Shown here: piece by piece, positions 34,235-44,857 of the stretch
Position numbering within the stretch: the stretch's first letter is position 1
Layout of the letters: every line of letters begins with the position of its first letter
From: Anaerolineae bacterium
GTDB lineage: Bacteria > Chloroflexota > Anaerolineae > Aggregatilineales > J027
Reading direction: 5' to 3'
DNA: 49,301 bases
Assembly (NCBI GenBank): GCA_019913005.1
Contig: JAIOHL010000075.1
Location: forward strand, 1-49,301
The notes under the pieces: generated by a model
What the model was told of the DNA's origin: nothing
The model's input: the letters and a program-made list of their open reading frames with translations, nothing else
Database searches by the model: none
Translations under genes and position numbers: made by a program

Positions 34235-35632
34235 CTATCGAGTAGCTTGGCGGGTGATGACCGCGCCCAAACACATTTCGTCTTCCGTGCTCTCTCCCCA
34301 AAAGATATAGCGCAAATTATCGCCGTGTGTATTGTCCCACACACAGGTGATGCGTACCGTGTCGCCCCGTTTGAGCAACAGGGGTTCTTGTAGAATATAG
34401 CCGCCCTGCCAATGGAAATCCCAGTCGGGGATGTCCAAAATCACTTGTCCATCCGATTCACTGGGGTTGCTTTCGATACGGATGCTCTTGCCACGCAGGT
34501 GCATATGCGCCAAGACAGAAATCACCTCTAGGTTATAGGGGACAGGATATTCACATGTGCTGGTGACATTGGCAGCATCTTGGTGAATATAATCCTCGAG
34601 CGAGTGCTGACACATATCCATCAGATCTGTCGGCCTGCGACCCGTTTGCTCAAGTATGAGTCGGCGGGCAGTCGCACGATCACATTCCGGGTTGGTGGTA
34701 TCGGCGGGGCAGGGGATTTCAACCGGAGCATACAGGCTGTAGGTGGTCAGTGGCTGAATTTCAGCATCGGCAGGGGCAAGTTGTAAAATCGCGCTGGTTT
34801 GGTCGGGCAGTGCGCCAGCCGAAAGATTGTAGTGGACTTGCATGATGATGAGGCCACCCCCAATCAAGCGAACACCTGTGCCCTCCGGGAAAATGGTAGG
34901 GAATGTACCGGGCGTCCACGAGCCAATGGAGTTTTCGAGGCCGCCATCTACTCCGGCAACATCCGGCCCGCCAAAACACTGCCACCCCAATCCTTCATCT
35001 TGGGCATCGCGTCGTTCTGCTAGAGCACGTCCCCAACCTTCGATCTGATAAAGCAAGACATGATGCACAACACTCGGCTGACCGGGTTGCACCGTATAGG
35101 CGGTGATATAGCGATCTTCAGCAACTTGTGGGTCAATTAGAAAACAGCGGTAATCATCGCGCAGTGTCGCATCAGGGGTGTATTCCGGCATGGTGAGCAC
35201 GACATCTTGGCGAATGGAGGGGATTTCGGTGGGGTTGACTTCGACTGCTTCACTAGGATCGCCGAGGGGGGCGTCGGCTCTGGCCCACTCTACCAGTAAC
35301 GTAATTTCCTCTTCGGTCAATTTGCGCTCATGCAGCATAGCAGGGGATTCTGGCCCCGGCATCCAAGGGGGCATATCGCCAACAGCGGCGGTCAGGGCGA
35401 TTTTGGCTGAGTTTTCAACCGCCGATTCGGGGGTATCCAACGCGACAGTTCCTATCCCGCCTTCGGTGTGACACATCAGACAGTGCTGCGCGATGATGGG
35501 TGCGATGTCGTGATAATAGCTTGGGGGACTGTCGGGGGGATGTGCCATTGAGATGGTGGGTTGGCTACGAATGACCCATACAATACCGAATGCCACTACG
35601 AGTAACCCTAAAAACCGCCACTTTTTCAACAT
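34235..35632 (-). CDS. Cytochrome c / PHM-type copper type II monooxygenase fusion
   Basis: A 465-residue membrane-anchored exported protein. Residues 5-22 form a membrane helix. Residues 38-115 are a cytochrome c domain with haem site C51-LM-C54-H55 and a likely axial Met in DMPPWM. Residues about 140-465 match the ascorbate-dependent type II copper monooxygenase fold (peptidylglycine hydroxylating type). All six copper-ligand positions are kept: H190-H191, H267 in MQVHY, H376-M-H378 in AHMHLRG, and M453 in DEMC. Disulphide-type cysteines are present. The haem domain may feed electrons to the copper sites in place of ascorbate (inference). Substrate unknown. No metal or redox genes are adjacent on the same strand. 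Confidence 0.85.
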   Translation of the reverse strand: MLKKWRFLGLLVVAFGIVWVIRSQPTISMAHPPDSPPSYYHDIAPIIAQHCLMCHTEGGIGTVALDTPESAVENSAKIALTAAVGDMPPWMPGPESPAMLHERKLTEEEITLLVEWARADAPLGDPSEAVEVNPTEIPSIRQDVVLTMPEYTPDATLRDDYRCFLIDPQVAEDRYITAYTVQPGQPSVVHHVLLYQIEGWGRALAERRDAQDEGLGWQCFGGPDVAGVDGGLENSIGSWTPGTFPTIFPEGTGVRLIGGGLIIMQVHYNLSAGALPDQTSAILQLAPADAEIQPLTTYSLYAPVEIPCPADTTNPECDRATARRLILEQTGRRPTDLMDMCQHSLEDYIHQDAANVTSTCEYPVPYNLEVISVLAHMHLRGKSIRIESNPSESDGQVILDIPDWDFHWQGGYILQEPLLLKRGDTVRITCVWDNTHGDNLRYIFWGESTEDEMCLGAVITRQATR

Positions 35633-35713: not shown

Positions 35714-35738
35714 AAAAAACGGGCCATGTATTGACCCG
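35714..35738 (-). terminator. Terminator closing the SUF operon
   Basis: Minus strand: a CGGG/CCCG-based stem (35720-35723 with 35735-35738) followed by a T run (A tract at 35714-35719), directly after the Rieske gene stop. Confidence 0.75.
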
Positions 35739-35741
35739 CGT

Positions 35742-36080
35742 CTAGTAAGGAGATTGAACATCAATCTGAATATTGCTGCCCTCAATGCGGACAGGGTAGC
35801 GTTTAATGGGGACTACCGCCGGAAAAGTTGGCTTGCCCGTCTTCAGTTCGAAGGTTGCGCCATGCCGATCACATTCGATTTTAGGGTTATCGGCGTCCTC
35901 AATCAGCATTCCCTCTGCCAATGGGCCGTCGTCATGCGTGCAGGCGTCTTCAATGGCATAGATCGTACCCCCCACATTAAATACCGCAATATAGTTTTCA
36001 TCTACTGTGACCACGATGCGTTCACCGGGGGGAAGCTGCTCGGTTGTGGCAATCGTTCTAAAATCGGACAAGTTAACCAA
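35742..36080 (-). CDS. Rieske [2Fe-2S] ferredoxin-like protein
   Basis: A 112-residue soluble Rieske protein. The cluster ligands are C47-T-H49 in ACTHDDGPL and C70-D-R-H73 in ECDRHGATF. The rest is the usual small beta fold (PPGERIVVTVDEN, PVRIEGSNIQIDV). It resembles NirD/dioxygenase-ferredoxin types, with no membrane anchor. It is the last gene of the SUF operon, six bases after the Clp-N/site-2 protease gene and just before the terminator. It may serve as a cluster recipient or electron donor (inference). Confidence 0.92.
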   Translation of the reverse strand: MVNLSDFRTIATTEQLPPGERIVVTVDENYIAVFNVGGTIYAIEDACTHDDGPLAEGMLIEDADNPKIECDRHGATFELKTGKPTFPAVVPIKRYPVRIEGSNIQIDVQSPY

Positions 36081-36086
36081 TCCTCT

Positions 36087-37526
36087 CTAATCTGTACTGC
36101 CAAAAATAGCATAAAATTGCTGGAGACCTTCACGCATCTCATCGCGTTCAATGGCAAAATTTTCGGTCAACGTGGCGGCCTGATTAGCAAATTCACGTCC
36201 CAAAGTGGAGCCTGTGCTATTGGTTGGCACACGCAGTATAAAAATGATCAATAACAGTGTGATGATCCCCATAGGTCGCAGGCTTGCGGCAATATCTTCG
36301 GGTAAGAATGGTTCGATAATACCAAAACCATCTAGCGGTGGAATTGGTAACAAATTGAGCATAATCGCCGTAACTTGGATAAACACGAGAGCAGCCAGTG
36401 GATACCATAAATTGCCCCGTGTACTTAATTGCTCTGGTGTGACCAACCCCAACCAAAAAGGCGCGGAAAAAACAATGGCGCAGATCAAATTTGCAAATGG
36501 CCCTGCGGCGGATACAGCACTGCCCCACCATTTACTGCGAAGGCGATGCCGTTCAATATAGACTGCTCCACCCGGAAGGCCGATTCCACCCGCCAATAAG
36601 ATGACAAGCGGGATAAAAATGCTTACAAGCGGATGGGTGTATTTAAGCGGGTTCATGGTTAGATAGCCTTTTTCGACCACTGTGTGATCGCCACCGAAAT
36701 AGGCTACTAAGGCGTGGGCAAATTCATGGAGGGTTAATGAGATAATCCATCCCCCAATCACAATCACAAGCGGCACTGTTACGTCAGGCCTGATGACGGA
36801 TCCATAGGCGACCATCACCACGATAGCTAACCCTATTAACGCGATTTGCCACGTCGAAAGACCTGTGCCACGTGGTTGGGCCGTTGTTCGGCGTGGGACG
36901 GGTCTGGCAGGGCGGGCAGCAGTCGTCACACTGGCGCGGTTTCCTTGTGGTGCTGAAGCTGAACGGAGGGAACTTATACCCCGTGCTTGTGAATTGGCAT
37001 TGGAAGGAATGCCAAGCCCTGTAAAAACATCAGCGAATTCCCATGTGCTGGGTCGCCATTTTTTGCTAAAGATGCCCGATGGTTCTTCCACATTGGCTTG
37101 GACGTAGGCGCGGATTTTCACCACATCGAATTTGGGAAGTTCCTTAAAAATATTTTCCAAAAAACCGCTAGGGCGCTCTAATACCCCCAACAGAATATGG
37201 CTGCTGCATAAAAAATTGTGCCCCATCTGATGGGCTTCACGTCCCGCTTGGGCAAAATTTAAGCGGACCTCGCTGGTCAGGCCTTTGGTGGTATTGAGGG
37301 GTTCATCCCTGACAACGCTCAATTGATTGGTGACCGCTGTCGTCACTTCGTCAGCCGACAGACCACCCACTTGAAGGGCTTGGCGTGCTAATTCATTGCT
37401 CAATATCCCGATCAACAAGTGTTCGCTATCCAAATAGGGATTATGGCGAGCACGGGCGGCATTGACCGAGATTTCTAATGAATGCACGGCATCGGGCGTG
37501 AGGGCGTCCAAAAAGGTGCTACTCAT
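36087..37526 (-). CDS. Clp N-terminal domain fused to an M50 site-2 metalloprotease
   Basis: About 479 residues from ATG 37526. Residues 1-150 are a Clp N-type double repeat as in ClpC/ClpA (SEHLLIGIL near 36 and SSHILLGVL near 110), the adaptor- and substrate-binding module. A disordered Ser/Arg/Pro-rich linker runs 175-222. From about 225 on is a polytopic S2P-type protease with HEFAH (267-271), zinc ligand motif NLLPIPPLDG (391-400), GG.GLPGGAV and PFANL. The domain pair is unusual. The start overlaps sufU by eight bases, so it belongs to the SUF operon. It could degrade or sense an unassembled Fe-S protein or a membrane regulator (inference). Confidence 0.88.
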   Translation of the reverse strand: MSSTFLDALTPDAVHSLEISVNAARARHNPYLDSEHLLIGILSNELARQALQVGGLSADEVTTAVTNQLSVVRDEPLNTTKGLTSEVRLNFAQAGREAHQMGHNFLCSSHILLGVLERPSGFLENIFKELPKFDVVKIRAYVQANVEEPSGIFSKKWRPSTWEFADVFTGLGIPSNANSQARGISSLRSASAPQGNRASVTTAARPARPVPRRTTAQPRGTGLSTWQIALIGLAIVVMVAYGSVIRPDVTVPLVIVIGGWIISLTLHEFAHALVAYFGGDHTVVEKGYLTMNPLKYTHPLVSIFIPLVILLAGGIGLPGGAVYIERHRLRSKWWGSAVSAAGPFANLICAIVFSAPFWLGLVTPEQLSTRGNLWYPLAALVFIQVTAIMLNLLPIPPLDGFGIIEPFLPEDIAASLRPMGIITLLLIIFILRVPTNSTGSTLGREFANQAATLTENFAIERDEMREGLQQFYAIFGSTD

Positions 37527-37908
37527 CGTCACCCGTCCAGCGTTCTACGTTATAGGCAGCGGCTTTGGCGACCTTGAGTGATAACAAGGCACATTTGCGG
37601 CGGCTCATGGTTATGGGAATGCCAAGTAATTCCATGACGTTATCGCTGGTGATGTGTTTGATTTCATCGAGCGATTTGCCGATTAACTCATCACCTAAAA
37701 TGGAGGCGGTAGCTTGACTAATCAGACAACCTTGACCGTTCCAGCCGATCTGCTGGACGATATTATGTTCGTCCACCTTGAGAGTCAATTCAAGCTGATC
37801 CCCGCATAAAGGATTTTCGTCTGCGGCGTGCAGTTGATAGTCGGGCAGCAACCCCCAGTTATGTGGATGCTGACCGTGATCTATGATGTTTTCTTGATAA
37901 AAATCCAT
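37519..37908 (-). CDS. sufU: Iron-sulfur cluster assembly protein SufU
   Basis: A 129-residue NifU/IscU-like zinc protein that receives sulfur from SufS. The conserved cysteine sites are C35-G-D37 in NPLCGD, C61 in GQGCLIS and C106 in RRKCALL. Length and motifs are those of SufU rather than IscU (the SRRKCALLSLKVAK tail). It lies 13 bases after sufS and overlaps the Clp-N/S2P gene. In Firmicutes SufU replaces SufE; here both are present. Confidence 0.95.
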   Translation of the reverse strand: MDFYQENIIDHGQHPHNWGLLPDYQLHAADENPLCGDQLELTLKVDEHNIVQQIGWNGQGCLISQATASILGDELIGKSLDEIKHITSDNVMELLGIPITMSRRKCALLSLKVAKAAAYNVERWTGDDE

Positions 37909-37921
37909 GTTTTCCTCGCCC

Positions 37922-39178
37922 CTATTTCCGACTGAAACGTCGTTTGGCGATATACAGTGCCTCTACCAGTTTATCCACTTCTGTCAAAGAATTGTAGAGG
38001 TAAAAACTAGCGCGGCTGGTGGCGGGGACATTGAAATGTTGATGCAGCGGCATGGCGCAGTGGTGTCCGGCGCGGACGGCGACCCCTTCGCTGTCCAAAA
38101 TCTGAGCCATATCATGAGCATGGATGTCATCGAGGGTGAAGGTGGCAACCGAACTGCGATAGGGCGCATCGGGGTTAAACAAACGCAAACCGGGCACTTC
38201 GGCAAGACGGTCATGCAAATAGTCGGCGATTTCCCGTTCATAGGCATGAACTCGATCCATACCTAGATTGCTCAGATAATCCACCGCCGCCCCCATCCCA
38301 ATCCCTTCGGCGATGGCGGGTGTGCCTGCTTCAAATTTATAGGGAAGGTCGTTAAACGTTGAACCTTCCAACGTGACGCGGCGAATCATATCCCCACCAC
38401 CCATCCACGGGGGCATGGCTTCGAGCAGGGCCTTTTTGCCATAGAGAATTCCAACCCCTGTTGGCCCACACATCTTGTGACCACTGAAGGCGTAAAAATC
38501 TACGTCGAGTGCCTGCACATCCACAGGCATATGAGGGACACTTTGCGCCCCATCGCCAATCGCAATCGCCCCGACTGCATGGGCCAGTCGCACAATTTCG
38601 GCCATCGGGTTGATGGTGCCCATGACGTTGCTGACGTGCATGATGCTGACGGCTTTGACGGGTTCATCACGCAGAATTTGCTGATAGGCATCCATATCCA
38701 ACCGGAAATCTGGCGTGACCGGGACATAACGAATCCGAAAGCCTTTTTCTTGTTGCAAGATGTGCCATGAGGTCAAGTTGGCGTGGTGTTCCATTACGCT
38801 CAAGACGACCACATCGTTCGGGCCGAGATTGACGCGCCCCCACGTCTGCACGATCAAATTCATGCTTTCGGTGGTGTTGCTGGTGAAGATCACTTCTTTG
38901 CGGGAGGCGGCATTGATAAATTTTTGGACTTTATCGCGTGCCCCTTCATAAAGTTCGGTGGCGGCTTCACTTAAAACATGTACCCCCCGATGGACATTGG
39001 CATGGGTGTGGCGATAATAGTGATTCATCGCCTCAATGACTTGGACGGGTTTTTGGCTACTAGCAGCACTGTCCAAAAAGACCAGCGGTTTGCCGGGATG
39101 AACTTCCTGATCCAGAATCGGAAAATCAGCCCGTACAGCGTCAATATCCCATGCGGTGGGGGGTGTTAATGCGCTCAT
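37922..39178 (-). CDS. sufS: Cysteine desulfurase SufS
   Basis: A 418-residue PLP enzyme that releases sulfur from cysteine for cluster assembly. PLP-binding Lys235 is in FSGHKMCGPTG. The PLP phosphate and ring contacts EHHAN (130-134) and GDGAQSVPH (208-216) are present, and catalytic Cys374 is in RAGHHCAMPLH. The RAGHHC loop marks the SufS (group II) subfamily. The start overlaps the sufE stop by four bases (ATGA). Its sulfur acceptors would be SufE and/or SufU from the same operon. Confidence 0.97.
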   Translation of the reverse strand: MSALTPPTAWDIDAVRADFPILDQEVHPGKPLVFLDSAASSQKPVQVIEAMNHYYRHTHANVHRGVHVLSEAATELYEGARDKVQKFINAASRKEVIFTSNTTESMNLIVQTWGRVNLGPNDVVVLSVMEHHANLTSWHILQQEKGFRIRYVPVTPDFRLDMDAYQQILRDEPVKAVSIMHVSNVMGTINPMAEIVRLAHAVGAIAIGDGAQSVPHMPVDVQALDVDFYAFSGHKMCGPTGVGILYGKKALLEAMPPWMGGGDMIRRVTLEGSTFNDLPYKFEAGTPAIAEGIGMGAAVDYLSNLGMDRVHAYEREIADYLHDRLAEVPGLRLFNPDAPYRSSVATFTLDDIHAHDMAQILDSEGVAVRAGHHCAMPLHQHFNVPATSRASFYLYNSLTEVDKLVEALYIAKRRFSRK

Positions 39179-39633
39179 TCGGATTTCTGTTCCTTTTGCG
39201 TCAGGTCAGCAAAATATTTGAGCAGGGCGACCATGCCTAAGAGACCCTCGCCCTTGCCCATTGAAATGCGTTTGCCAAACAGCCGAAACACGATATCGTG
39301 GGGGACGGCCTTGATGGTCTCGGCTTTTTCGCCCATCAGTGACTCTTGTAAGATGGCAGCCAACGCCTTTGCGGATACCCCTTGTGGATTTTCGACTGCG
39401 AAATAGAAATTAATCCCGCCCTCGGCATTGGGTTCGGTAAAAACATACGCCTCCGACTCACAGCGCTGGACACGATGATCTTCGGGGAAGGGACGCTGGG
39501 CAATGTAGCTGGGGACTTCCTGAAACCGACTGCTGTAGTCCAATAGAATTTCAGCCCGTCCATGTTCGTCAATATCCTCGAACATTTCCATTACGTCACG
39601 CAGGGTTTCGGGATATTCGCTGATGTCTGCCAT
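39175..39633 (-). CDS. sufE: Cysteine desulfuration protein SufE
   Basis: A 152-residue SufE-fold protein that takes persulfide from SufS and raises its activity. The acceptor Cys58 lies in HRVQRCESEAYVF, the expected place after the first helices. The C-terminal half has AKALAAILQESLMG, the family's hydrophobic helix. It shares four bases with sufS. Presence of SufE together with SufU in one operon is uncommon. Confidence 0.92.
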   Translation of the reverse strand: MADISEYPETLRDVMEMFEDIDEHGRAEILLDYSSRFQEVPSYIAQRPFPEDHRVQRCESEAYVFTEPNAEGGINFYFAVENPQGVSAKALAAILQESLMGEKAETIKAVPHDIVFRLFGKRISMGKGEGLLGMVALLKYFADLTQKEQKSE

Positions 39634-39648
39634 CTTTCGTTCACCTTA

Positions 39649-40500
39649 CTATTTTTCGATTGGCACGCCGACAGAATTACCCCATTCCGTCCAACTGCCA
39701 TCGTAATTACGTACTGTAGGATAACCGAGCAAATAGGTCAAGACAAACCATGTATGTGCCGAACGTTCCCCGATGCGGCAGTACGTGATAATATTTTGGC
39801 TGGGGGCGAACCCATTATCCTGTTCATAGAGCGCTTTCAAATCATCGGATGGCTTAAATGTGCCATCCGGTTGAACTGCTTTGCTCCAAGGAATACTTTT
39901 AGCGCCGGGGATGTGTCCGGCCCGTAATGCGCCCTCTTGTGGATAGTCTGGCATGTGGGTCAATTCGCCCTTAAATTCGCCGGGGCTGCGTACATCAATT
40001 AAAGGCAGGTGGCCGTTGACATGACTCAAGACCTGATCGCGGAAGGCCCGCACCTTATAATCGGAGCGTTCTTGGGCATGATAAGTCGAGGTCGGATAAT
40101 GTGGCACTTCTTTGGTTAGGGGACGTTGTTCTTCGACCCATTTGAGTCGCCCCCCGTTCATGATGGCGGCGTTGGTGTGTCCGAATAATTGGAATACCCA
40201 GAACGCATAACACGCCCACCAATTGTTTTTATCCCCATAAAACACCACTTTGGTGTTGTTGCTGATACCATGTTTGGACAGCAGGCTCTCAAAGGATTTG
40301 CGGTCAAGATAGTCACGGCGAACTTGGTCGTTTAAGTCGGTTACCCAGTCAATTTGGATGGCACCGGGGATATGACCGGAGGCGTACAACAGGGGGTCTT
40401 CGTTGGATTCGACAATGCGCACGGCGGGATTGTTTAAGTGCTGTGCGACCCAATCCGTACTAACCAGCGCATCAGGGTAAGCGTAGCCGGAGTTAGACAT
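39649..40500 (-). CDS. Rhodanese-type thiosulfate/3-mercaptopyruvate sulfurtransferase
   Basis: A 283-residue tandem-rhodanese protein. The N-terminal domain (about 12-130) is inactive-type, lacking the catalytic Cys. The C-terminal domain (about 150-283) has the active loop C241-R-I-G-E-R in [10 protein letters not shown], the CRxGxR form typical of thiosulfate sulfurtransferases. It sits between sufD and sufE, 15 bases before sufE, so it may feed persulfide to the cluster machinery. The start ATG is preceded by a good GGAGAACC site. Confidence 0.93.
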
Positions 40501-40563: not shown

Positions 40564-41931
40564 TTATTTGTTTTTGGCGGTGTGCATTCCGAGTAATTTA
40601 CGGTCTACATCCGCCAGCAAACGATTCTGCACATCCTCAAAGGGGATGCGCTCCAATACGTCCCAGAAATAGCCATTGAGGAACAGGCGCTCGGCCTCAA
40701 TGCGTGGGACGCCGCGTGTCATCAAGTAGAAGATGTATTCCTCTTCCATCTGTCCAACCGTCGCGGCATGGGTGCAGCGCACATCGTCGGCTTCAATCTC
40801 CAAACCGGGGATGCTGTCGGCACGGGCGGTGTCACTCATGAGCATGTTGCGATTGGCTTGGAAGCCGTCGGTCTTAATCGCCCCCGGCATCACGCGGATA
40901 TTGCCACGCCAAACACTGTGAGCCTCATCTTTGAGAGCGGCCTTGAATAGAAGATCGCTGGTGGTATGGGGGGCGCTGTGGGTTTGATAGGTGTCATGGT
41001 CAAGCAGTTGTGTGCCATCAGCGAAGAACATGCCACTCATGCGACCCCATGCACCTTGTTCATCCAGCGAAATCTGCATGAATGACTTGGTGAGTTTGCT
41101 GCCCATGCTGCCCACAATCCAGTCGAGTTGACCATCACGCGATACGTGACCCCGGCCATGACTGAATTCGTACATATTATGACCCCAGCTTTGCAGGCTG
41201 ACATAACGCAAGTTGGCGGCACGCCCCACCAATAACTCCGTCCCGCCGATATAGCTGGTATGACTATCACCTTCGGGGGAGAGATATTCATGCAAAATGG
41301 TGGCCTGTGCGCCTTCTTCCAACACGATCAAGACATGGCCCAATGTTGCGCCCGTCTGCTCACTGTAGAAAATGCTGTGCAAGGGTAGCTCAACCACTAC
41401 ATTACGCGGCACATAGATAAATAAGCCATGTGTCCATGCGGCAGCATGTAGGGCGGCAAATTTGCCCTCGGATGGTTTAAGGGCTTTTTGGAACAGATGC
41501 TTTTTCACCAAATCGCCATGATCGCGGATGGCGGTGTGTAAATCGGTGAAGACTACACCCTGCTTGGCGATTTTTTCATTCAATTCGCGGTGAACGAGTT
41601 TGCCATCTACCCACGCGATCAAGCCGCCTTGTTCATTGCCAATCAATGGGGCGCGATTTTCGACAGGGATATGTTCCACTGTCGCGCCATTGGGGACGGG
41701 ATAATGTCCGGCGCTGTTCCAATTGATATGGCTGTAATCAGTACGCCGCCAAGCCTCGTCACGTTGGTTTGGCATTGGCATGGATTCATAGATGACCCAT
41801 GCTTGTTGGCGGAGTTCAATGACCCACTCAGGTTCACCAGCAGCCCGCGCATGTTCCAAAATGGCTGACCATTGGAAGGGCGGGGCAGCAATTTCACGTT
41901 TGGCTCGGCGACTAACAGTTGTTGTCGTCAC
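40564..41931 (-). CDS. sufD: Iron-sulfur scaffold protein SufD
   Basis: A 455-residue component of the SufBCD scaffold complex, where SufD pairs with SufB and two SufC ATPases. It shows the right-handed beta-helix core typical of the family (FIYVPRNVVVELPLHSIF, HVLIVLEEGAQATILHEYL, VWRGNIRVMPGAIKTDGFQ) and the C-terminal region with ADDVRCTHAATVGQM and EAERLFLNGYF. The start is GTG; the ribosome site GGAG lies about 12 bases upstream. It is about 80 bases after sufB and 63 bases before the rhodanese gene. Confidence 0.94.
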   Translation of the reverse strand: MTTTTVSRRAKREIAAPPFQWSAILEHARAAGEPEWVIELRQQAWVIYESMPMPNQRDEAWRRTDYSHINWNSAGHYPVPNGATVEHIPVENRAPLIGNEQGGLIAWVDGKLVHRELNEKIAKQGVVFTDLHTAIRDHGDLVKKHLFQKALKPSEGKFAALHAAAWTHGLFIYVPRNVVVELPLHSIFYSEQTGATLGHVLIVLEEGAQATILHEYLSPEGDSHTSYIGGTELLVGRAANLRYVSLQSWGHNMYEFSHGRGHVSRDGQLDWIVGSMGSKLTKSFMQISLDEQGAWGRMSGMFFADGTQLLDHDTYQTHSAPHTTSDLLFKAALKDEAHSVWRGNIRVMPGAIKTDGFQANRNMLMSDTARADSIPGLEIEADDVRCTHAATVGQMEEEYIFYLMTRGVPRIEAERLFLNGYFWDVLERIPFEDVQNRLLADVDRKLLGMHTAKNK

Positions 41932-42011: not shown

Positions 42012-43442
42012 CTAGCCAACACTGCCTTCGAGTTGAATCTCAATCAGGCGGCGCAGTTCCAACGAAAATTCGATGGGTAGTTCCTTCGCCAGTGGTTCGA
42101 TAAAGCCATTGACGACCATCGTGTTCGCCTCGGACTCGCTGAGGCCGCGACTCATCAGATAGAACAACTGCTCCTCACCCACCTTGCTGACACTGGCTTC
42201 GTGCCCAATCGTTACGTCGTTTTCTTCGACTTCGATGTAAGGGTAGGTGTCGGATCGGCTTTCCGGATTGAGTAGTAGGGCGTCACAGACAACATTGCTC
42301 CGCACGCCATGCGCTCCTTCATGTACTTTCAGCAGTCCGCGATAGCTGGCTCGCCCATCGTCTTTGGAAATGGACTTGCTGATGATGCGGCTGGTGGTAT
42401 TCGGCGCGACGTGGACAATCTTGCCCCCCGCATCCTGATGCTGACCGCTGCCAGCAAACGCGATACTGAGCACTTCACCATGTGCCCCCGGTTCCATCAG
42501 ATAGACGGCGGGGTATTTCATCGTTACCTTCGAGCCGAGGTTGGCATCTACCCATTCCATTGTGGCATTTTGATAGGCAACAGCGCGTTTGGTTACAAGG
42601 TTATAGACATTGCCCGACCAATTTTGAATCGTGGTATAGCGGCAACGCCCACCCTTCTTAACAATGATTTCTACTACCGCGCTGTGCAGGCTGTCGGATT
42701 TCCACACCGGAGCGGTGCAGCCTTCGACATAATGGACGAATGCGCCTTCATCTACGATAATCAGGGTGCGCTCAAACTGACCCATGTTTTCGGTATTGAT
42801 GCGGAAATACGCTTGTAGGGGCAAGTCAATATGCACCCCCGGTGGCACATAGATAAAACTGCCACCCGACCAAACGGCAGTATTCAAAGCGGCAAATTTG
42901 TTGTCGGTGGGGGGGATGATTGTGCCAAAATATTCCTTGACTAGTTCGGGGTGTTCGCGCAGGCCCGAATCCATATCGAGGAATAACACGCCCTTTTTTT
43001 CAAGGTCTTCACGGACTTTGTGATAGACCATTTCAGACTCATATTGAGCACCGACGCCACTTAGGAATTTTTGTTCGGCTTCAGGAATGCCTAGCTTATC
43101 AAAAGTATCTTTGATTTCGCTGGGCACCTCATCCCACGAGCTTTCTTGCTTATCTGTGGCGCGGACAAAATAGCGAATATCATCGAAATCAATACCACTT
43201 AGATCAGCACCCCACGCTGGCATGGATTTGCCTAAAAAGGTGTGATAGGCGCGGACACGAAACTCGGTCATCCACTCCGGCTCACCTTTGAGGGCACTAA
43301 TCCAGCGTACCACTTCCTCACTGAGGCCCTTTTCACCTTTAATGGAATAGAATTCCTCGGTGTCGTGGAAACCATATTTCGTGAGATACTCATCGTTGAT
43401 ATGACGTAAAGCCTTCTCGTCACTTGTTAGCCGTTCACTCAT
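42012..43442 (-). CDS. sufB: Iron-sulfur scaffold protein SufB
   Basis: About 476 residues from ATG 43442, selected for GAGGAA eight bases upstream (an in-frame TTG lies at 43457). Conserved SufB blocks are [40 protein letters not shown] with the cluster-related Cys, LVTKRAVAY and [19 protein letters not shown], and the C-terminal [22 protein letters not shown]. The gene follows sufC by 29 bases. SufB is the main scaffold on which clusters form. Confidence 0.96.
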
Positions 43443-43471
43443 GTCACTGTTCCTCAACTACCCTAACAATG

Positions 43472-44254
43472 TTACTCTTCGGTTACTTCGACGCCGTGTT
43501 TTTCAAAGAACGGCTTATAGCCTGCTGTTTCAACTTCTTCTGCCAATTCCGGCCCGCCACTTTCCACGATGCGTCCATCCATCATCAGGTGGATGTACTG
43601 CGGTTGCAAATAATCCAACATGCGTTTGTAGTGGGTAATGACCAAAATGCCGAGATCAGGCCCTTTGAGCTTGTTAACACCATCTGCCACAATCCGCAAG
43701 GCGTCAATGTCGAGACCAGAGTCGGTTTCGTCAAGGATGGCAACGCGCGGCTCAAGGGTAGCCAACTGCAAAATTTCGTTACGTTTCTTTTCGCCACCGG
43801 AGAAACCTTCATTGAGATAGCGACCCGCGAATTTGTGATCAATACCCAGCAAATCCATTTTTTGCGTCAGTAGTTTGCGAAATTGGGGAATGCTGATCCC
43901 TTGATCTTCGGGGTTCTGTGATTTACGGCGGGCATTAATAGCACTGCGCAGGAAATTGGCGACTGAAACTCCCGGTACGGCAACCGGGTATTGGAAGGCA
44001 AGGAATAGACCGAGGCGGCTGCGTTCGTCTGCTTCCAGTTCCAGCACTTCTTCGCCGTCAAAAATAACCTGACCCGCGTCTACAGTATAGGCGGGGTGGC
44101 CCATCAGTGCATAAGCCAGTGTGCTTTTGCCAGAGCCGTTTGGCCCCATCAGCGCGTGTGTCTCGCCCTGATTAATCGTCAGATTCACCCCTTTGAGAAT
44201 AGGTGTGCCATTGATACTGACGTGTAAATTTCGGATTTCGAGGGTGGCACCCAT
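43472..44254 (-). CDS. sufC: Fe-S assembly ATPase SufC
   Basis: A 260-residue ABC-type ATPase of the SufBCD complex. Walker A GPNGSGKS near 38, signature [10 protein letters not shown] near 150, Walker [13 protein letters not shown] near 170, and switch His in VITHYKRM. The GGEKKRNE form is typical of SufC. It is the first gene of the operon. The ATG has AGGAGG 12 bases upstream. Its promoter region is 170-200 bases upstream, leaving a long leader. Confidence 0.97.
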
Positions 44255-44509: not shown

Positions 44510-44548
44510 GACCATAACAATGCCGGAAACTATTTGGAGCATTTTGTG

Positions 44549-44857
44549 ATGAGCGACGCCGTTCAAACAATGGAAGATAAAGTTCGGGACGCCCTGCGCA
44601 CTGTGGTTGACCCCGAAATTGGCATGGATGTAATTCAATTGGGCCTAGTCCGTAAAGTGGATGTTAGCGAAAATCGCTTGCATGTGATTATGATTTTGAC
44701 GACCCCCTTCTGCCCCTATGCGCCACAGTTGATGGAACAGGTGCGCCGCACGGCTCAAACCGTGTCTGGTCTGACCACAACCATCGAGATGGGCCTCGAA
44801 ATCTGGGACCCCTCCATGATGGAAGAGGGTGCTGCCGATGATTGGGGGCTGTTTTAA
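44549..44857 (+). CDS. sufT: SufT/MIP18-like (DUF59) Fe-S assembly factor
   Basis: A 102-residue small DUF59 protein. The family block VVDPEIGMDVIQLGLV is near 18-33 and the conserved Cys is in TPFCPYAP near 61-64. The C-terminus is acidic. SufT-type proteins help put clusters into target proteins. It is divergent from the SUF operon. The start is ATG 44549, with GGAG nine bases upstream; TTG 44534 would be an extension before the ribosome site. The 3' end carries a terminator. Confidence 0.88.
   Translation: MSDAVQTMEDKVRDALRTVVDPEIGMDVIQLGLVRKVDVSENRLHVIMILTTPFCPYAPQLMEQVRRTAQTVSGLTTTIEMGLEIWDPSMMEEGAADDWGLF

Follow-up and report, generated by a model that had tools for sequence, protein, structure and literature searches.

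A putative site-2 protease with an N-terminal Clp domain encoded in the SUF operon of two families of Chloroflexota

Introduction

The described systems closest to the gene considered here are the site-2 proteases (S2Ps) and the N-terminal domain of ClpC. Among the S2Ps, RseP carries PDZ domains and its gene is not known to belong to a suf operon; to our knowledge, no SUF operon has been described with an intramembrane protease. The CBS-type S2P group, represented by SpoIVFB and mjS2P, is defined by one or more C-terminal CBS domains, and Pro-sigmaK is engaged by the interdomain linker of SpoIVFB, with the CBS domain likely aiding its positioning (PMC11486902). Regarding ClpC, E32 and E106 are the key residues for phosphoarginine binding (PMC12583610), and ClpC2 and ClpC3 reportedly use the same ligand site as ClpC1 and compete for it (PMC10864484).

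A search of the open-access literature retrieved, among the matches listed, no account of a protein joining a Clp_N domain to an M50 peptidase and none of an S2P in a suf operon, and among the open-access articles on ClpC with SufU and the iron-sulfur cluster none was on this topic by title. Here, such a gene is analyzed in the window, that is, the whole 49,301-nucleotide stretch of contig JAIOHL010000075.1 from an Anaerolineae bacterium (assembly GCA_019913005.1), and compared with its relatives across the phylum. Families are numbered, f1 being that of the window and f92 a second family in the same order.

Results

Organization of the SUF operon

On the minus strand of the window, the order of genes is sufC, sufB, sufD, rhodanese, sufE, sufS, sufU, the fusion gene, and a Rieske ferredoxin gene, with the following features:

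44534..44857, plus strand: SufT-like FeS_assembly_P gene (E=3.4e-18), divergent from sufC
44456-44427 and 44398-44370, minus strand: promoter-like matches upstream of sufC (pattern scan)
43472..44254, minus strand: sufC, first gene of the operon (ABC_tran, E=4.8e-23; named by position)
42012..43457, minus strand: sufB (SUFBD_core, E=5.5e-88; sufB or sufD called from position and length)
40564..41931, minus strand: sufD (SUFBD_core, E=4.3e-76)
39649..40500, minus strand: rhodanese/mercaptopyruvate sulfurtransferase-like gene (Pfam; NCBIfam match under the cut-off)
39175..39633, minus strand: sufE (SufE, E=1.1e-10)
37922..39178, minus strand: sufS, cysteine desulfurase (Aminotran_5, E=3.8e-147)
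37519..37908, minus strand: sufU (NifU_N, E=5.2e-22; best NCBIfam match SufU, 84.5 bits for a cut-off of 92.5)
36087..37532, minus strand: Clp_N-M50 (site-2 protease) fusion gene, 481 aa from a GTG start
35742..36080, minus strand: Rieske-type ferredoxin gene, 112 aa, last gene of the operon (Rieske_2, E=3.2e-16)
35719..35739, minus strand: terminator-like hairpin and U tract after the Rieske gene (pattern scan)

The end of sufU and the start of the fusion gene share 14 nt, in agreement with the overlap claimed in the original prediction, and the Rieske gene begins 6 nt downstream of the fusion gene. The span first proposed for the latter, 36087-37526, is a real open reading frame that runs from an ATG at 37526 to the end of the stop codon at 36087 and encodes 479 aa, the GTG at 37532 being also a possible start. 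Moreover, the gene had been described as ending before the operon terminator; a hairpin is indeed present downstream, but the fusion gene is not the last one, as the Rieske gene (35742-36080) intervenes.

The hairpin at 35739-35719 has a minimum free energy of -12.3 kcal/mol (z -2.2), with 6 of 200 shuffled sequences being as good, and in the near relative L107 a similar hairpin follows the Rieske gene, along with comparable promoter-like matches. In the whole region, 9 terminator-like sites are found for a shuffled mean of 14.8, and 19 promoter-like sites for a mean of 15.3. Because these counts are no higher than chance, both kinds of signal are weak, and a single terminator-like site constitutes weak evidence. 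The same pattern scan gave no terminator-like site at the junction between sufU and the fusion gene. Altogether, the common strand, the absence of a gap, and the conserved adjacency support that the fusion gene is a member of the SUF operon, for which a shared transcript is predicted; the membership originally proposed is thus sustained by the overlap with sufU and by the conserved sufU and Rieske neighbors in f1 and f92.

Downstream of the hairpin, the minus strand at 34235-35632 encodes a protein of 465 aa, in which a copper type II monooxygenase C-terminal domain and, below threshold, a cytochrome-c-like stretch are recognized; its gene cluster (58) likewise follows the operon in other f1 genomes.

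Domain architecture of the fusion protein

The protein encoded between sufU and the Rieske gene is composed of the following elements:

37323..37460, minus strand: Clp_N repeat 1 (34.5 bits), keeping the glutamate equivalent to ClpC E32
37137..37244, minus strand: Clp_N repeat 2 (25.9 bits), with Ser in place of the glutamate equivalent to ClpC E106
36861..37085, minus strand: basic linker, residues 150-224 (11 K+R and 3 D+E), predicted to be cytosolic
36213..36860, minus strand: six-helix M50/S2P membrane domain, residues 225-440 (Pfam, hydropathy)
36714..36728, minus strand: HEFAH zinc motif, residues 269-273, intact
36327..36356, minus strand: NLLPIPPLDG motif, residues 393-402, with D401 as presumed third zinc ligand

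Pfam, the motifs, and hydropathy all corroborate the architecture initially recognized in this gene, namely, a double Clp repeat joined by a linker to a polytopic M50 protease with intact HEFAH and NLLPIPPLDG. Orthologs with 72-98% identity are present in four near-relative loci, belonging to the Chloroflexi/Anaerolineae MAGs CFX5, CFX10, DTUCFX7, and NC_groundwater_1614, and the recurrence of this arrangement in other genera indicates that it is not due to chance.

For the N-terminal half, Pfam Clp_N matches the window protein in two stretches (E=5.5e-14, 52.5 bits for a gathering score of 20.7), and a phmmer comparison with solved structures retrieves ClpC N-domains, the match to 6ucr (E=9.8e-8) covering residues 21-133 of the fusion protein. 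The whole protein gives Clp_N matches only in this comparison (36 sequences), and with a full-length profile only Clp_N-type chains are present among the best 60 of 89 matches. NCBIfam yields solely matches far under the cut-off (ClpB, ClpA, and a daptide HExxH protease). Pfam detects no AAA+ ATPase domain in the fusion protein, which is then not a ClpC unfoldase.

The E32 of ClpC corresponds to E37 of the window protein, and this glutamate is conserved in 23/23 f1/f92 proteins and kept in two of the three f97 proteins, whereas 17/17 proteins of f29 and f32 have lost it. The equivalent of E106 is absent in 43/43 aligned fusion proteins. The suf-linked proteins would therefore retain half of the phosphoarginine apparatus of ClpC, and the pair of glutamates that marks a ClpC-type phosphoarginine receptor is incomplete in the fusion protein. 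Regarding possible partners, ClpS was detected in 0/18 genomes searched, with a signal in 5/14 controls, which makes an adaptor of the ClpS type unlikely; for the McsB-type arginine kinase (PF00217), 0/18 genomes gave a signal and so did 0/14 controls.

Other Clp_N proteins are encoded in the same genome. One of 656 aa (L151, G000:C60, 2948-4918, plus strand) has two Clp_N repeats and a TCAD9/APH phosphotransferase region, being another Clp_N receptor joined to a different enzyme, and frames of similar size with Clp_N matches (659 and 654 aa) are present in G426:C14 and G400:C4. In a second one of 296 aa (L152, G000:C200, 3259-4149, minus strand), Pfam recognizes four Clp_N repeats and nothing else, and G426:C18 holds a 297-aa frame with four Clp_N matches. 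Finally, a 182-aa frame with two Clp_N repeats (L004, G000:C77, 231-593, plus strand) is located directly upstream of a ClpC-like gene.

For the C-terminal half, Pfam Peptidase_M50 (PF02163) matches the window protein with E=3.6e-9 and 36.7 bits (gathering score 27.2), and this score is passed by 8/9 other fusion proteins scanned, the exception being L105 from f97 with 22.8 bits. The similarity to solved S2Ps is weak, being visible only when an M50-only profile is used (RseP, E=0.004; SpoIVFB, E=0.02), as queries with the full protein return Clp_N. The residues H269, E270, H273, and D401 are present in 43/43 aligned fusion proteins, and N393 in 42/43, these counts corresponding to the 43 Clp_N-bearing rows with the short L069 and L123 left out. 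No CBS domain is found by Pfam, which reports Clp_N and M50 only, and so the protein is not an S2P of the CBS type (SpoIVFB/mjS2P group).

Hydropathy gives six hydrophobic segments in the window protein, with one of them before the HExxH helix. At the same threshold, the f92 member L122 shows five segments instead of six, and the 213-aa homolog L043 has no helix ahead of the HExxH helix. According to the positive-inside rule, a basic flank lies on the cytosolic side. With a basic linker ahead of the first helix, this rule would place the Clp_N domain and the N-terminus in the cytosol, a topology inferred from hydropathy and charge. An AlphaFold2 model of the window protein and four close orthologs was set aside (mean pLDDT 33, pTM 0.22).

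Nei-Gojobori dN/dS values, calculated over short stretches against the three close relatives L106-L108, range from 0.05 to 0.10 in Clp_N, from 0.02 to 0.05 in M50, and from 0.07 to 0.20 in the linker; L109 was omitted because its synonymous sites are near saturation. These sequence-based ratios indicate that both domains are under purifying selection, M50 appearing as the more constrained domain of the two. Also, the own genome of the window has a second M50 protein of 219 aa with no Clp_N (L153, G000:C48, 3518-4177, minus strand), and the fusion is consequently not the sole S2P-like protein there.

Distribution of the fusion and its linkage to suf genes

The order of the window, covered with 154 genomes, has strong orthologs (E <1e-40) in 9/10 genomes of f1 (own genome included), 15/18 of f92, and three of f97. 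A set of 400 genomes from the phylum provides 38 others with a strong M50 ortholog (E <=5e-35), all of them in f29, f32, f49, and f3. Pfam confirms Clp_N in 9/9 fusion proteins scanned from f1, f92, f97, f29, and f32, and does not find it in the single f49 member scanned. The 13 proteins of f3 are 213-274 aa long, with no Clp_N by tblastn. However, tblastn overlooks the domain in most f29/f32 proteins, although it is recognized there by Pfam or in the alignment, and the argument for f3 is therefore the short length of its proteins.

Within the f1/f92 lineage, the suf linkage is strong. SufU is encoded just upstream in 21/22 f1/f92 loci whose contig reaches far enough, and the Rieske gene is next downstream in 24/24 (the window plus 23), covering 12 genera for the first adjacency and 14 for the second. 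The exception to SufU is an f1 locus, L113, with no SufU within 2.4 kb upstream; L118 and L123 are outside this count because their contig ends at the fusion gene. For the Rieske gene, 236 nt separate its start from the protease stop in L120, where that strand has a single intervening ORF of 52 aa. Moreover, a possible start codon of the fusion gene overlaps the end of sufU or is located at <=16 nt from it in 20/21 loci including the window, L125 being the remaining one.

Beyond the operon, the flanking genes mostly differ between f1 and f92. The neighbors that they share are one cluster within ~4 kb downstream and two upstream, one of these being SufT-like, in a clustering that omits L061, L065, L077, and L123, where the gene was missed by the crude ORF caller.

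This linkage is absent in the other families that have the fusion. In the flanks of the 21 Clp_N-M50 loci from f97 (3), f29 (6), and f32 (12), SufB, SufD, SufS, and SufU are found in 0/21, the flanks being short on one or both sides in L051, L055, L065, L069, L074, and L104, and sufS is on another contig in 9/9 of these genomes where it was located. Weak SufC-like matches near L046, L050, L059, L103, and L104 (E 8e-13 to 6e-5) were read as other ABC ATPases. Seven f32 loci have the fusion gene directly behind an rlmB-like one (cluster 13, identified by eye). In two f32 contigs (G027:C28 and G247:C14), the fusion gene has rlmB-, cysS-, and radA-like neighbors (named by eye) and shares its strand with a ClpC-like gene ~17 kb away.

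Hence, the domain pair has to be considered apart from the SUF linkage, being the more widespread of the two. The original prediction tied membrane proteolysis to Fe-S assembly and raised the question of whether the pair tracks with suf genes. This tracking is conserved in two families but is no general rule, given the 21 loci elsewhere that are devoid of SufB, SufD, SufS, and SufU in the flanks covered. The refutation foreseen in the original prediction, a domain pair that is common apart from suf genes, is in this way borne out by half, and the pair itself had been tied too closely to SUF. These loci imply that Fe-S assembly as such is not what the domain pair evolved for, and that the architecture has a SUF-independent use, not being a core SUF component in general.

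Phylogeny and history of the insertion

In the M50 tree, which took in all 65 rows supplied, the linked proteins of f1 and f92 form one clade (support 97/93), with the f3 proteins that lack Clp_N as nearest relatives (97/95). On this tree the suf label changes once and the Clp_N label twice, which would mean that either the fusion occurred more than once or f3 and f49 lost Clp_N. The test does not reject a topology that unites every Clp_N-bearing row (p-AU 0.28).

The Clp_N domains of f1/f92 also form one clade (99/99), distinct from the ClpC and ClpB rows. A first Clp_N tree separates them from f29/f32/f97 and the ClpC side (98/90), but when 24 unfoldase or orphan rows are added the deep split is weak (84/83); for this second tree, L105, which has a long branch, and six near-duplicate rows were set aside. 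A single clade holding every fusion is not rejected on the Clp_N tree (p-AU 0.51). The pairing of Clp_N and M50 in Chloroflexota may have had one origin or several, the trees favoring neither.

The region of sufS was read in 24 genomes outside f1/f92, as well as in the f92 genome G412, whose contig ends in sufU. In 13 of the 24, sufU directly adjoins the Rieske gene, with 15-141 bp between matches (f93 3/3, f2 5/5, f94 2/2, f3 2/2, and f97 1/3). For example, the f97 genome G548 has an intact sufU-Rieske junction and its Clp_N-M50 gene on another contig. The other 11 genomes show no Rieske match after sufU (f97 2, f96 2, f29 2, f32 3, f49 2): it is located after sufD in f29 and before sufS in one f32 genome, and the remaining genomes either gave no such match or have a stretch that is cut off early. 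These empty sites outside f1/f92 suggest that the protease gene most likely entered an already existing sufU-Rieske junction. Most likely, an S2P with a ClpC-type domain was recruited into the SUF operon once. In the same reading, SufB matches of two f2 genomes (L132 in G436 and L135 in G488) are split into two or three pieces that are ~0.6 to 1.1 kb apart, a pattern for which inteins or other insertions in sufB are a possible cause.

Discussion

A proposed function coupled to Fe-S assembly

The explanation that we consider best, and toward which we lean slightly, is that of an S2P with a tethered ClpC-type N-domain that, from within the SUF operon, trims or removes a membrane protein for Fe-S assembly. 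The protein would be an intramembrane zinc protease of the S2P type, with its ClpC-type N-domain tethered by the basic linker. In the cytosol, Clp_N would act as receptor for a substrate tail, an adaptor, or a damaged client, and direct it to the active site in the membrane; the protein itself carries no ATPase, and the part of ClpC that serves as receptor would occupy the place of the linker and CBS domain of SpoIVFB. In a common ancestor of f1 and f92, a protease of this kind would have entered the SUF operon. There it would be co-expressed, and it would probably trim or remove a protein that sits in the membrane or is docked to it, at times of demand for Fe-S assembly or when this assembly fails.

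SpoIVFB would be the nearest analog of this proposed mechanism. The operon position in f1/f92 points to a protease activity that is wanted whenever SUF is made, and its conservation suggests, without proof, that membrane proteolysis and Fe-S assembly work together; nonetheless, the same position can reflect convenient co-expression only. Fe-S proteins, including SdhB and aconitase, are reported in the ClpC1 interactome of Mycolicibacterium smegmatis (PMC10433963), so that a ClpC-type N-domain with Fe-S clients is conceivable, but no more than that. A stricter version, a dedicated SUF-coupled protease whose Clp receptor feeds the membrane protease rather than an unfoldase so that it cuts in step with Fe-S supply, seems to us doubtful.

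Alternative explanations

The enzyme could instead be a general housekeeping membrane S2P that has no functional relation to Fe-S assembly and is retained in the SUF operon because expression there is steady. The 21 loci of f97, f29, and f32 with no suf genes nearby, the rlmB-like gene that precedes the fusion gene in seven f32 loci, and the M50 orthologs of f3 and f49 apparently lacking Clp_N are all consistent with this idea. However, a mere passenger would not be expected to keep its place next to sufU in 12 genera and next to the Rieske gene in 14 while the outer genes mostly differ between f1 and f92, nor to retain an overlap or near-overlap with sufU, and we consider it a rather unlikely explanation, on a par with the dedicated protease.

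Regulated intramembrane proteolysis narrows the preferred explanation to one particular mechanism and is somewhat less probable than the passenger. Here, the S2P would cut a membrane-tethered regulator, e.g. an anti-sigma factor, and Clp_N would gate the reaction by the Fe-S state of a partner. Known cases are in line with this, as in ferric citrate uptake E. coli RseP cuts FecR, which regulates a sigma factor (PMC8144685), and Pro-sigmaK is engaged by SpoIVFB through its interdomain linker (PMC11486902); but no gene for a membrane regulator was noticed in or beside the operon among the ORFs of the window, some of them scanned with Pfam, and the divergent neighbor of sufC is SufT-like.

Finally, it is improbable that the membrane-bound Clp_N serves as a decoy or docking site that competes with ClpC for ligands like mycobacterial ClpC2, the protease being secondary: its similarity to ClpC and standalone ClpC2 (8ad9, 9p2p), the E37 kept in 23/23 f1/f92 proteins, the competition of ClpC2 and ClpC3 for the ClpC1 site (PMC10864484), and the further Clp_N proteins with no unfoldase in the own genome would fit, but the E106 equivalent is missing in 43/43, the catalytic residues are fully conserved in the more constrained M50 domain, and the f1/f92 Clp_N domains are a clade of their own (99/99) outside the ClpC rows.

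Comparison with known systems

For the preferred reading, that of a protease serving Fe-S assembly, a conserved S2P in the SUF operon provides a handle on whether this assembly ties to membrane protein turnover, and the fusion provides another on the role of Clp_N domains that are not part of an unfoldase. The operon itself offers candidate partners (SufU, SufB/C/D/S/E, and Rieske), and the related families with an intact sufU-Rieske junction are a natural control.

Compared with ClpC from B. subtilis and S. aureus and ClpC1 from M. tuberculosis, the fusion protein has the same double Clp_N repeat and, in f1/f92, the E32 (pArg2) glutamate. Unlike them, it has neither the AAA+ ATPase nor the E106 (pArg1) glutamate, and the enzyme attached is an intramembrane protease of the ATP-independent type. 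The mycobacterial ClpC2 and ClpC3 also use a Clp_N domain outside the unfoldase, but these are described as small Clp proteins that compete for ligands (PMC10864484), whereas in the fusion Clp_N is joined to a protease. With E. coli RseP, the protein shares the S2P core motifs, and RseP offers a tie between an S2P and iron by the cleavage of FecR (PMC8144685). Lastly, SpoIVFB and mjS2P have in common with the fusion the six-helix S2P core, the HExxH and NxxPxPxxDG motifs, and an accessory domain on a linker. In their case, this domain is a C-terminal CBS and the operon is that of sporulation, whereas here it is an N-terminal double Clp_N and the operon is SUF.
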